From Gammaproteobacteria bacterium (lineage in GTDB: Bacteria; Pseudomonadota; Gammaproteobacteria; Thiohalomonadales; Thiohalomonadaceae): DNA of 39,078 bases. The DNA is taken from the NCBI GenBank assembly GCA_026196275.1, contig JAPHTQ010000016.1:1-39078 (forward strand), written 5' to 3'. The position numbers and the translations under genes were made by a program. This document shows positions 13,458 through 35,757 of the stretch, one piece after another. The notes under the pieces are model-generated. The model saw only the letters and a list, made by a program, of their open reading frames with translations. It was not told where the DNA came from and did not search any database. Each line of letters begins with the position of its first letter. The first letter of the stretch is position 1.

Positions 13458-15272
13458 GTGACAAGGGTTTTGTATTTGTTTGATTTTATAAGAATTTTCT
13501 CGTCCGTGGCCGTGCTGTTGCTTACCTTGGGGACAGGGCAGGCAACCGCTGCCGCCGCCCAGGCGATGGGCTATGAGCCCAAATATCCGGATGGTTTTGC
13601 CCACTTCGACTATGTCAATCCCGAGGCGCCGCGCAGCGGCAAGCTGGATCTGGGTGTCTTCGGCAGCTTCGACAGTCTTAACCCCTACACCCTCAAGGGG
13701 CAAGCCGCCGCCGGCCTCGGCCAGCTGATGTTCGAAACCCTGATGGTCAGCAGTCTGGATGAGCCGTTCAGCCAGTACGGGCTGCTGGCCGACGAGGTCG
13801 AACTGGCCGAGGACAAGCTCTCGGTCACCTATCATCTCAATCCTGAGGCGCGTTTCAACGATGGCAGCCCGGTGCTGGCCGAGGATGTGGTTTTCTCCTT
13901 CGAGACGCTGCGCGATGAGGGGCATCCGCAGTACCGCATCTACTGGAGCGACATTACCGGTGCCTCCGCAGTGGATGCGCGCACGGTGCGCTTCGACTTT
14001 GCCCGGGTCAATCCTGAGCTGCACCTTATCGCGGGGCAGATCCCCGTCTTCTCGCGTAACTGGGTGGGTGACAATGCGTTCGGTAGAATGGCGCTGGAGC
14101 AGCCCGTCACCAGCGGCCCCTATCTCATCGAGAAGTATGAACTGGGTAAGTACATCACCTATCGGCGTAATCCCGACTACTGGGGCAAAGAGCTCAACGT
14201 GCGCCGTGGCATGTTCAACTTCGAGCGGATCACCTACAAGTTCTACCGCGATTTCACCGTAATGCTGGAGGGGTTCAAGGCGGGGGAGTTCGATTTCATC
14301 CATGAGTACAACTCGAAGAAGTGGGCCCGCGACTATATCGGTCCGAAGTTCCGCTCCGGCGAGATTATCAAGCAGGAGTTGCCACACAGCAATAACGCCG
14401 GCATGCAGGGCTTCATCTTCAACCTGCGCCGGCCGCTGTTTCAGGATATCCGTGTCCGCCAGGCGCTGACCCTGGCGCTCGATTTCGAATGGTCCAACCG
14501 CAACCTCTTTTACAACCAGTACGAGCGCAACGACAGCTACTTCAGCAACAGCGAACTGGCCGCCCGTGGCAAGCCGGACGAGGCGGAGCGTAAGCTGCTG
14601 GAGCCGTTCCGTGACAGGTTGCCGCCGGAGCTGTTCGAGGGGCCGTGGCAACCGCCGAGTACGGCACTCCCGGGCAGTCTGCGTGAGAACCTGCGTCAGG
14701 CCAGGGCACTGCTGCAGGAGGCCGGCTGGGGGTACCGTGATGGCGCCCTGCGCAACGACAGGGGCGAGCCGTTACAGATCAGCATTATCCTGCGGCAGAA
14801 GGGATTCGAGCGTATCGTTGCCCCCTTTGCCCGCAATCTTGCCAAGCTGGGTGTGATCGTCGAATACCGTACCGTCGACAGTGCGCTCTATCAGCGGCGT
14901 ATGGATACCTTCGACTTTGATATGGTCGTGGCCGGTTTCGGCCAGTCGCAGTCGCCGGGTAATGAGTTGATGAGCATGTTCCACTCCAGTTCCGCTGATA
15001 AAGAGGGTTCGTTCAATCTGATGGGGATCAGCGATCCGGTGGTCGATGCGCTGGTGGAAGAGGTGATCTATGCCGAAGATCGCGAGGCGCTGGTCACCGC
15101 AGTGCATGCGCTCGACCGGGTGCTGCTCTACGGTAACTACCTCATCCCGCACTGGTACATCGGCAACCACCGTGTCGCCTGGTGGGACCGCTTCGGCCGG
15201 CCGCAGACCCTGCCGCTCTACTACGACCCGGTCAACTGGATGCTCGCCACCTGGTGGGTTGAAAAGAATTAA
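13458..15272 (+). CDS. yejA: Peptide ABC transporter substrate-binding protein, YejA-type (family 5)
   Basis: Periplasmic binding protein of an oligopeptide importer. YejABEF in E. coli takes up microcin C, and the related Pseudomonas Npp system takes up peptidyl-nucleoside antibiotics. Started at GTG 13458 it has 604 aa with a signal peptide (VLYLFDFIRIFSSVAVLLL, then cleavage near ATAAA). The mature part shows SBP_bac_5 features: SLNPYTLKG, ARFNDGSPVLAEDVVFSFE, VTSGPYLIEKYE and DIRVRQALTLALDFEW. The SNRNLFYNQYERNDSYFSNSE region is typical of the YejA subgroup. The ribosome binding site is weak, so the exact start is uncertain. A CGCAAAG-type inverted repeat begins at its stop codon. Confidence 0.92.
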   Translation: MTRVLYLFDFIRIFSSVAVLLLTLGTGQATAAAAQAMGYEPKYPDGFAHFDYVNPEAPRSGKLDLGVFGSFDSLNPYTLKGQAAAGLGQLMFETLMVSSLDEPFSQYGLLADEVELAEDKLSVTYHLNPEARFNDGSPVLAEDVVFSFETLRDEGHPQYRIYWSDITGASAVDARTVRFDFARVNPELHLIAGQIPVFSRNWVGDNAFGRMALEQPVTSGPYLIEKYELGKYITYRRNPDYWGKELNVRRGMFNFERITYKFYRDFTVMLEGFKAGEFDFIHEYNSKKWARDYIGPKFRSGEIIKQELPHSNNAGMQGFIFNLRRPLFQDIRVRQALTLALDFEWSNRNLFYNQYERNDSYFSNSELAARGKPDEAERKLLEPFRDRLPPELFEGPWQPPSTALPGSLRENLRQARALLQEAGWGYRDGALRNDRGEPLQISIILRQKGFERIVAPFARNLAKLGVIVEYRTVDSALYQRRMDTFDFDMVVAGFGQSQSPGNELMSMFHSSSADKEGSFNLMGISDPVVDALVEEVIYAEDREALVTAVHALDRVLLYGNYLIPHWYIGNHRVAWWDRFGRPQTLPLYYDPVNWMLATWWVEKN

Positions 15273-15419
15273 ACGCAAAGGGCGCAAAGACGCAAAGGTT
15301 TATAAATAATGATCTGTTTATGCTGTCCCAAAACCAAAAAAATTGCTCGTGTCGAGGTGCCAGTAACAATAACCCATAACACCTCTTTGCGTTCTTTGCG
15401 TCTCTGCGCCCTTTGCGTT
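15271..15419. repeat. CGCAAAG inverted-repeat element A (yejA/yejB spacer)
   Basis: The left arm (15271-15296) has CGCAAAG units at about 9-nt steps and pairs with the right arm (15394-15419) at 25 of 26 positions. A further CTTTGCG unit extends the right arm inward to 15382. The centre is about 85 nt, AT-rich, with no clear substructure. The element starts in the yejA stop codon and ends 16 nt before the yejB ATG. Confidence 0.9.
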
Positions 15420-15435
15420 AAAAGGTTTTGATTTA

Positions 15436-17558: not shown

Positions 17559-17567
17559 AAGCGTTTA

Positions 17568-17728
17568 ACCGCAAAGGCGCAAAGGGCGCAAAGGAACGGT
17601 ATTCTTGGTCTATGAAAGACATGTCAGGGTATAGGGTTGGAATGAGTAAAACGTTTTTTACAGGGGAGCAGAACAGCACATTCATCATAATGACGGTTTT
17701 TCCTTTGCGTACTTTGCGCCTTTGCAGT
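17568..17728. repeat. CGCAAAG inverted-repeat element B (yejE/yejF spacer)
   Basis: The left arm (17568-17595) matches the reverse complement of the right arm (17701-17728) at 25 of 28 positions. The centre is about 105 nt. The element begins 9 nt after the yejE stop and ends 12 nt before the yejF ATG. Positions 17697-17725 are identical over 29 nt to 35229-35257 in element F, and a further 14-mer (GTTTTTTACAGGGG, 17653-17666) recurs at 35266-35279. Confidence 0.92.
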
Positions 17729-17740
17729 GAATGACTTTTT

Positions 17741-26800: not shown

Positions 26801-27042
26801 ATTCACCGCAAAGCGCGCAAAGGGTTGCGGAGGGAACGACTTTAAGCCACAGAGAGCACTGAGGTCACAGGGAGGTGATGAGACAATAGAAAACTCCGCT
26901 CCGGCGCTTTTTCTCTGTGTGCTCTGTGCCCTCTGTGGCAATAACTTCCAGCGGCGGGCATGCCCCGCTCTATGGAGCAGCGATAGGGCGCCCTGTGGGC
27001 GCCACTATCTCTTGGCGCACTTTGCGCCTTTGCGGGGTGAAT
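26801..27042. repeat. Composite nested inverted-repeat element C (dnaE/accA spacer)
   Basis: The outer arms are the CGCAAAG type: 26801-26822 (ATTCACCGCAAAG...) against 27020-27042 (...GCGGGGTGAAT). A second inverted repeat of different sequence is nested inside. GCCACAGAG-rich 26846-26874 pairs imperfectly with 26911-26939, which ends CTCTGTGGC. Between the nested arm and the outer right arm are a GCGGGCATGCCCCGC-like palindrome near 26953 and a perfect stem GGCGCCC-TGT-GGGCGCC (26988-27004). It fills most of the 376-nt spacer. The remaining 129 nt before accA hold no gene. Confidence 0.88.
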
Positions 27043-28131: not shown

Positions 28132-28136
28132 AACCC

Positions 28137-28399
28137 TTAACGCAAAGGACGCAGAGGCGCAGAGATCGCAAAGGCTATTATTGCTGGCGGTTTAGTTGTA
28201 GGCCACGTTGCGCAGCTACGTGGCAACATCGCGGTTTGGAGGGATGCCAGGTAGCCAGTGGGGCGTTACGGGTATTGCGGTTTTTTTATCGTCGGTGTGC
28301 CATCGGTCTTCCGGGTGTTGGTGTGGCGGCAACCTGGCCTACGCGCTTGCAGCTACCATTTCCTTCACGTCTTTTGTGTCTTTGCGCCCTTTGCGTTTA
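28137..28399. repeat. Composite nested inverted-repeat element D (accA/tilS spacer)
   Basis: The outer arms are 28137-28174 (TTAACGCAAAGGACGCAGAGG...) and 28360-28399 (...TTTGCGCCCTTTGCGTTTA). A second inverted repeat is nested: GTAGGCCACGTTGC (28198-28211) matches the reverse complement of GCAACCTGGCCTAC (28329-28342) at 13 of 14 positions. A third stem GCCACGT/ACGTGGC (28202-28208 with 28218-28224) overlaps the nested left arm. The element begins 5 nt after the accA stop and ends 20 nt before tilS, so it is nearly the whole 288-nt spacer. No gene is seen in it. Confidence 0.88.
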
Positions 28400-28419
28400 C
28401 AGTTTTTTAAGGTTTAACC

Positions 28420-34112: not shown

Positions 34113-34298
34113 CTCACCGCAAAGGCGCAAAGAAGGCAAAGGGTTTAATTGAACAAGGCATACTTACAGTGTCAGTTTCTCGCCCCAACTGGCCCGGTCC
34201 AACCCAGGCAGGGAAACATTAAACCGATGACTGGCATCTTTGTATACCTATGAAGATGTTTCCTTGCGGCCTCTGCGTCTTTGCGCCTTTGCGTTGAA
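34113..34298. repeat. CGCAAAG inverted-repeat element E (ftsB/ispD spacer)
   Basis: The left arm 34113-34143 (CTCACCGCAAAGGCGCAAAG...) pairs with the right arm 34262-34298 (...CTTTGCGCCTTTGCGTTGAA). The centre is about 118 nt and includes CATCTT/AAGATG pairing near 34233-34256. The element begins 1 nt after the ftsB stop and ends 17 nt before the ispD ATG. Confidence 0.9.
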
Positions 34299-34315: not shown

Positions 34316-35014
34316 ATGACTGGCAATCTGAAATTCTGGGCGGTCATTCCGGCGGCCGGGGTCGGCAAACGGATGCAGGCGGATCGGCCGAAGCAGTACC
34401 TCGAACTGCACGGCAGGACGGTGCTGGAGCATACCCTGATGCGCTTTCTCGACCATCCGCAGATTACCGGAGTGGTGGTGGCGCTCACCGACGGTGATCC
34501 CTACTGGCAGAGATTGGCGCTGTCCCATCCAAAGCTGATGAGTGCTCCCGGTGGCGAAGAGCGCTGTCACTCGGTACTCAACGCCTTGCAAGTGCTGCAA
34601 CAGCGTGCCACAGAGAGCGACTGGGTGTTGGTCCACGATGCGGCGCGCCCCTGCCTGCGGAGAGAGGATGTTGATCGGTTGATCGCCGCACTGACCGACC
34701 ATCCGGTGGGCGGACTGCTCGGCCTGCCGGTGGCCGACACCATGAAACGCACCGACGCGGAGGATACCGTGCTCGAAACCGTACCCAGGGACAACCTGTG
34801 GCGCGCCCTGACGCCGCAGATGTTCCGCCTTGGCGAGCTGGCACAGGCGCTGGAGAGTGCGCTGAAAAAGGGCCAGCTGGTGACCGACGAGGCCTCGGCG
34901 ATGGAACTGGCCGGCAAGGCGCCGAAGATGGTCGAAGGCCACGGCGACAACATCAAGATCACCCGCCCGCAGGACCTGCGCCTGGCGGAGCTCTACCTGG
35001 CTGAGCAGGATTGA
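34316..35014 (+). CDS. ispD: 2-C-methyl-D-erythritol 4-phosphate cytidylyltransferase
   Basis: Third enzyme of the non-mevalonate (MEP) isoprenoid pathway; joins methylerythritol phosphate with CTP. It is 232 aa. The nucleotide-binding signature [20 protein letters not shown] (about 8-27) is complete. [11 protein letters not shown] (about 104-114) and the C-terminal [16 protein letters not shown] are conserved. Repeat elements E and F flank it on both sides, so each junction of the ftsB-ispD-ispF unit carries one. Confidence 0.97.
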
Positions 35015-35022
35015 AAACCTGA

Positions 35023-35263
35023 TTCACCGCAAAGGCGCGAAGAACGCAAAGGAAAACCCACTTTATGGCCACGGAATACACGGAATGCGCGGAAGAAGGA
35101 TGTTTGCATTATTTCGTGACTTTCCCGTATCAGCCTATACCTGAAGAATTGTGAATATGGATTCCTGTCATTCACTGGAATGACGATGACAACATTACTT
35201 ACGTCCGTGTGTTCCGTGGCCATTGATTTTTTTCCTTTGCGTACTTTGCGCCTTTGCGGTGAA
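35023..35263. repeat. Composite nested inverted-repeat element F (ispD/ispF spacer)
   Basis: The outer arms 35023-35052 and 35234-35263 match at 28 of 30 positions (TTCACCGCAAAGGCGC...). Nested inside, TGGCCACGGAATACACGGA (from 35066) pairs with a right arm at 35201-35222 (...GTGTGTTCCGTGGCCAT). At the centre is a third perfect stem, GTCATTC-ACTG-GAATGAC (35167-35184). The element begins 8 nt after the ispD stop and ends 23 nt before ispF. No gene lies in this 272-nt spacer. Confidence 0.93.
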
Positions 35264-35286: not shown

Positions 35287-35757
35287 ATGAGAATCGGACA
35301 CGGCTACGACGTACACGCTTTTACTGCGGGTGACCATATCGTCCTCGGCGGGGTGCGCATTGCGCATAGCCACGCCTTTGCCGCGCACTCGGACGGCGAC
35401 GTGCTGATCCACGCCCTGTGCGATGCGCTGCTCGGTGCGGCGGCGCTGGGCGATATCGGCCGCCACTTTCCCGACAGCAGCGCCGAGTTCGAGAACATCG
35501 ACAGCCGCATCCTGCTGCGCCGGGTGGTGGAACTGCTGCATCACCACGGCTACCGCCTCGGCAACGCCGACATGACGATCATCGCCCAGGCGCCGAAGCT
35601 TGCGCCGCATATCGAGGCGATGCGGGTCAACCTGGCCGCCGACCTGCAGGCCGTACTGGATCAGGTCAACGTCAAGGCAACCACCACCGAGAAGCTGGGT
35701 TTTGCCGGGCGCGAGGAGGGGATCGCCGCACACGCCGTGGTCCTGCTGAGACGATGA
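35287..35757 (+). CDS. ispF: 2-C-methyl-D-erythritol 2,4-cyclodiphosphate synthase
   Basis: MEP pathway enzyme that forms the cyclic diphosphate and releases CMP. It is 156 aa and trimeric in the family. Metal ligands Asp8 and His10 lie in GHGYDVHAF, with the third His in [30 protein letters not shown] and the C-terminal [20 protein letters not shown] are present. AGGGG precedes the ATG just outside repeat element F. The stop overlaps the truD start by 4 nt (ATGA). Confidence 0.97.

Follow-up and report, generated by a model that had tools for sequence, protein, structure and literature searches.

The ispD-ispF spacer

The window analysed here, i.e. the whole 39,078-nt stretch of DNA, carries ispD and ispF in succession, separated by a 272-nt spacer that is largely occupied by a set of nested inverted arms (hereafter element F). 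Its outer left arm begins 8 nt past the ispD stop codon, and the features of the spacer are arranged as follows:

35012-35014, + strand: ispD stop codon (ORF 34316-35014; Pfam IspD PF01128, E=1.2e-75)
35023-35056, + strand: outer left arm, class 1, steps 8,9, TTCAC-CGCAAAG-G-CGCGAAG-AA-CGCAAAG-GAAAA
35065-35094, + strand: inner left arm, class 2, steps 9,9, GGC-CACGGAA-TA-CACGGAA-TG-CGCGGAA (paired portion 35065-35084)
35167-35184, strandless: 7-bp stem GTCATTC-ACTG-GAATGAC, off-centre and near chance level (P=0.046, 2000 dinucleotide shuffles)
35204-35223, - strand: inner right arm, class 2 inverted copy, two units remaining and the third degenerate
35230-35263, - strand: outer right arm, class 1 inverted copy, TTCAC-CGCAAAG-G-CGCAAAG-TA-CGCAAAG-GAAAA
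35275-35289, + strand: CAGGGG resembling a ribosome-binding site, and start codon of ispF (35287), 23 nt past the outer arm
35287-35757: ispF (Pfam YgbB PF02542, E=8.6e-68)

The original prediction described element F as three concentric inverted repeats, unlikely to have arisen by chance. Both arm pairs are real: the outer CGCAAAG arms (35023-35056/35230-35263) match at 32/34 positions over 34 nt (94% complementary), and the inner CCACGGAA arms, placed here at 35065-35084/35204-35223, match at 19/20 over 20 nt (95%), the two pairs sharing a centre at 35143-35144. The third layer, the GTCATTC/GAATGAC stem, is present but not concentric, its centre (35175.5) lying 32 nt from that of the arms, and 4.6% of shuffled 119-nt interiors contained a comparable 7-bp stem, so that the three proposed layers reduce to two. 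Chance symmetry was thus rejected for the two outer layers and retained for the stem. The suggested comparison of folding energies with shuffled sequence placed the whole element far beyond chance, both as RNA (-116.3 kcal/mol, the shuffles averaging -59.7; z -12.9) and as DNA (z -13.3).

A design of short units repeated at fixed steps is, as predicted, common to the layers, but the CACAGAG layer that had also been assigned to element F belongs to a neighbouring nested element (26802-27039) and is absent here. Since the inner layer of element F bears the class 2 prefix and step, element F is a class 1 element enclosing a class 2 element, and its CGCAAAG, CCACGGAA and GTCATTC layers are not one device. 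Rfam recognised only two tRNAs in the window, and no plasmid matched element F when its full length was used as query.

Arm families dispersed through the genome

Both classes are dispersed through the 2.54-Mb genome that contains the window (G000). The doublet CGCARAG-N-CGCARAG, with one mismatch allowed, has 322 matches in this genome against 9 for the reversed-pattern control, and the gcCACAGAG class (steps 9,9) has 134 against 0. We estimate that the genome holds at least 100 arm pairs, of which 66 were gathered by script from pattern-matched places and retrieved stretches. The consensus of 69 class 1 arms reads AAAAA-n4-WTTCAC-CGCAAAG-G-CGCAAAG-TA-CGCAAAG-GAAA, where the outer A-rich signal probably reflects in part the adjacent gene's stop codon. 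Steps are mainly 8,9, the variants being 8,8, 9,8,9, 8,8,9 and 9,9. Paired arms have the same unit class and usually the same step pattern. Whole elements span 54-439 nt and consist of inverted arms around mutually unrelated interiors, a common interior being found in only 4 of the 66. Besides element F, the window contains:

15269-15422: class 1 family element, steps 9,8,9
17565-17731: class 1 element, steps 8,9
26802-27039: second nested case, class 1 outer arms around an inner gcCACAGAG (9,9) element at ~26846-26939
28136-28400: class 1 family element with an interior common to three other copies (contigs C8, C15 and C17)
34114-34297: class 1 element in the ftsB-ispD spacer, where the related genome G007 has ~14 nt

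The four copies with a common interior (28141-28395 in the window, and loci L031, L108 and L109) share ~150-190 nt (GCGTAGGCGAGGTTGCCGC...) at 86-91% identity; this only common-interior group is possibly a recently mobile sub-family. Unit number can increase in one arm alone, as at L113 (1230-1276; G000 C27:16229-16275), where one arm is made of six tandem CGCAAAG units at step 8 and its partner of two. The interiors of L003 (1200-1530) and L040 (1366-1642) contain GTAGGCCGGACA.../...CGGGCCTAC segments resembling GTAG-tagged REP repeats, which look like a separate family lodged inside arm pairs.

Position relative to genes

Elements lie close behind genes. The outer arm edge is within 10 nt of a stop codon (from a 4-nt overlap to a 10-nt gap) in 47 of 57 cases, with a median of about 5 nt, these distances being taken from automatic ORF-based gene calls that miss short genes such as ftsB, so that single values may err. 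Elements typically end ~18 nt ahead of a start codon. The flanking genes are codirectional for 39 elements, convergent for 9 and divergent for 4; in the convergent arrangement, both arms mostly adjoin stops. Elements of the gcC class are often near stops too, less tightly than those of class 1.

Pairing between arms

Among elements with steps 8,9 in both arms, the two arms of one element are more alike at variable unit positions (0.854) than arms from different elements (0.666), an excess that arises from class: within the CGC class alone, likeness is 0.854 in the same element and 0.860 between elements (p=0.73), and at linker 2 it is 0.27 against 0.39. Likewise, the 14 elements examined in the related genome G010 are all class-matched and show no significant covariation beyond class. 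With no excess likeness within a class, hairpin pairing is not the conserved property, and selection for a hairpin was rejected on the CGC class and G010 results. The pairing is rather a by-product of both arms fitting one consensus, which points to a protein that reads the arms or to a copying process.

Nested and adjacent classes

Further loci combine class 1 and class 2 by nesting (L040 and L113), and CGCAAAG forms the outer class in 4 of 4 nested cases of G000; at L394 the two classes are adjacent, not nested. The four cases with CGCAAAG outside and the side-by-side arrangement at L394 are compatible with an inner layer that is either the newer or the older one. Reverse nesting, with CACAGAG outside CGCAAAG, occurs on two contigs of another genome (L171 and L169; G083 contigs C5 and C53), together with interleaved two-class arms. 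Of ~22 gcC elements (from the first 30 loci of gcCACAGAG matches), 2-4 lie in a spacer that also contains a class 1 element, so the co-occurrence of the two classes is perhaps somewhat enriched. Nesting most likely records two landings at one spacer.

Gain and re-use of sites in related genomes

In related genomes, ispD and ispF overlap by 4 nt or are similarly tight (G005, G011, G012, G018 and G019), or are separated by 6-9 nt (G007 and G008); the entire element F was therefore gained in this lineage. The original prediction had proposed this comparison as a way to order the gains of the layers, but with relatives that overlap or keep 6-9 nt, and none with partly built symmetric sequence between the two genes, no order can be read from it. 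Copy number is patchy, from 0 to about 220 arms per related genome, these counts being lower bounds for the whole family as the search pattern is class-specific, and many genomes of the class have no match.

The genomes G009 and G010, two species of one sister genus that are about 80-84% identical in DNA, provide a comparison of orthologous sites. At first G009 seemed nearly empty (2 matches), because the class filter missed its own dialect. All 8 sites of G010 elements alignable to G009 are occupied there, one as a solo right arm, and the arm class differs between the two genomes at 8/8 sites; this set leaves out C217:12669, which is ambiguous, and C90:9134, where gene order differs. G010 arms are mostly TTCAC followed by CGCRAAG (steps 8,9), and those of G009 are CAA or GC followed by CACAGAG/CGCAGAG (steps 9,9). 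The 17 kb examined of G009 contig C109 contain no elements besides those at the three orthologous sites. Part of the interior beside the right arm can still be aligned at site C47:10703 (CTGAATTCTTTTACTC); therefore at least that element is ancestral, and the occupation of the same 8 sites implies that the majority of positions are old and not freshly mobile. The solo right arm (L284; G009 contig C13, record ~2194-2306) faces a complete pair in the sister species, which suggests either loss of one arm with the interior or insertion of a single arm. The eno-ftsB spacer (L063, L065, L068 and L069) contains an element in G009, G010, G018 and G019, i.e. in two genera, with decayed arms in G018.

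Hundreds of paired arrays per genome may stay at fixed intergenic sites over long evolution while their spelling (unit and step) changes in the two arms together and concertedly from site to site, sister species forming different 'dialects' at shared places through concerted evolution with a putative recognising protein, a scenario that we regard as possible if somewhat unlikely.

Possible origin and function

The explanation that we prefer, and hold tentatively, is that element F is a non-coding, MITE-like class 1 insertion containing a second-class insertion, the arms being read by a putative protein and elements landing repeatedly in tolerant spacers. Each element would be defined solely by its two inverted arms, the interior being passenger DNA. 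An arm, with its roughly three 7-nt units in steps of 8-9 nt, would offer adjacent sites to one DNA-binding protein, a putative transposase or targeting protein, which may bind the arms and move the elements in trans; class-matched arms are what is expected of ends with a cognate protein. Elements would land in the short non-coding interval that separates a stop codon from the gene after it, and later classes would re-use the same tolerant spacers. Survival of both would leave nested arms, presumably after landings in a given order, and loss of the older arms would appear as a class change at a conserved site. Several observations speak against this reading, namely the unrelated interiors, the old positions, the lack of target-site duplication (no signal at any fixed offset among 66 elements, whose copies may be old) and the lack of an evident autonomous copy with its own transposase among the large arm pairs examined. 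As candidates for the latter, the large pairs were rejected, as they proved to hold a TnpB insertion sequence (L121) or to be distinct elements next to unrelated genes (L169 and L170). At L121 (G000 contig C6:14000-17500), an IS605-type TnpB gene with OrfB_IS605 and Cas12f1-like_TNB domains lies inside the arm pair, at 888-2540; no other gene turned up between paired arms.

Alternatively, the arms could be paired arrays of sites for a nucleoid protein or a global regulator, with selection holding both arms around a free loop while their spelling drifts genome-wide with the specificity of the protein. The elements of G009 and G010, kept at the same 8 testable spacers with a different spelling at each, would suit such arrays, as would the absent covariation within classes, and the passages on paired sites of Geobacter metallireducens in Aklujkar et al. 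(2009, PMC2700814) propose IHF/HU-like global regulators. However, two or more classes coexist per genome with arms class-matched by element, the family is missing from many relatives, and elements are placed in housekeeping operons such as ftsB-ispD-ispF, where no promoter match was found at the element. This account is better than the MITE-like one for site conservation and worse for class coexistence, and we consider it rather unlikely.

The elements could also act as RNA, a long hairpin after the stop codon protecting or destabilising the upstream mRNA or stalling terminating ribosomes. The very stable fold (z about -13) and the stop-proximal placement agree with such a role, and PMC12306157, with work cited there, relates E. 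coli REPs located within 15 nt of stop codons to altered translation. Selection on pairing should not, however, leave arms without covariation within a class and with poorly paired linkers. In addition, the outer stem fails the canonical terminator pattern, the search for an intrinsic terminator (a short GC-rich stem followed by a T run) giving only a weak 5-bp match in the inner right arm at about shuffle level. We therefore find an RNA function improbable.

The least credible of these explanations, and a very improbable one, is an element of the REPIN/REP type mobilised by a Y1 (RAYT-like) transposase: inverted doublets, a less conserved spacer, high copy number, extragenic and stop-proximal location and Y1 genes in the scanned element-rich genomes fit it, but the arms are not palindromes and bear no GTAG or CGTC tag, Y1 genes are equally common in genomes without elements, and the RAYT link was rejected as arms flank none of the 30 Y1 loci examined, and neither of the two in G000.

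Comparison with known systems

MITEs such as Correia elements and RUP are small, non-coding, intergenic elements with inverted terminal repeats of 20-35 bp, whose copies have a common interior and a target duplication. The elements described here, which the MITE-like reading would relate to them, are also small, non-coding and intergenic with terminal inverted repeats, but their interiors are unrelated, with one shared in 4 of 66, and no duplication was detected. REPINs and their RAYT transposases (Bertels and Rainey 2011, PMC3116915; Di Nocera 2013, PMC3733652) likewise form inverted doublets around a less conserved spacer, in hundreds of extragenic copies with a patchy distribution. In contrast to the arms, which are direct 7-mer arrays, REPs are short palindromic sequences tagged with GTAG or CGTC, and those of the GTAG type flank a dedicated RAYT gene of which no counterpart was found here.

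The closest likeness is with the 'predicted global regulator binding sites' of Geobacter metallireducens. The passages on these sites in Aklujkar et al. (2009, PMC2700814) describe related classes of 7-8 nt tandem repeats, three per site, several classes to a genome, paired on opposite strands at variable distance; 21 pairs are given, with insertion sequences lying a constant distance away from sites of class 1. The elements described here likewise have three to four tandem 7-8 nt repeats in opposite-strand pairs at variable distance. The class 2 unit given there, TCTCCGTS[Y], is the reverse complement of CACGGAG with a step of 8-9; it occurs in elements C25:4746/4828 and C61:22547/22605, is nearly reproduced by the CACGGAA of the inner layer of element F, and differs from the CGCAAAG of its outer layer. 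Judged on their repeat architecture, the element F family and the Geobacter sites appear to be the same kind of element, although our estimate here is at least 100 pairs and the main unit is CGCAAAG.

Direct literature searches with the repeat strings returned no match, and apart from a mention in the genome paper of 2009 this kind of element has been given neither a mobiliser nor a function by name. A CACAGAG-spelled query retrieved very similar arms in records of Bacteroides finegoldii, Nostoc, Calothrix, Anabaena and Gemmatirosa, i.e. Bacteroidota, Cyanobacteriota and Gemmatimonadota, so that one kind of element recurs across phyla. To what those Geobacter passages describe, our observations add nesting, with classes sharing landing sites, stop proximity, absent covariation and the re-use of sites with class change, for which G009 and G010 offer a direct means of studying how the two arms of a site switch class.
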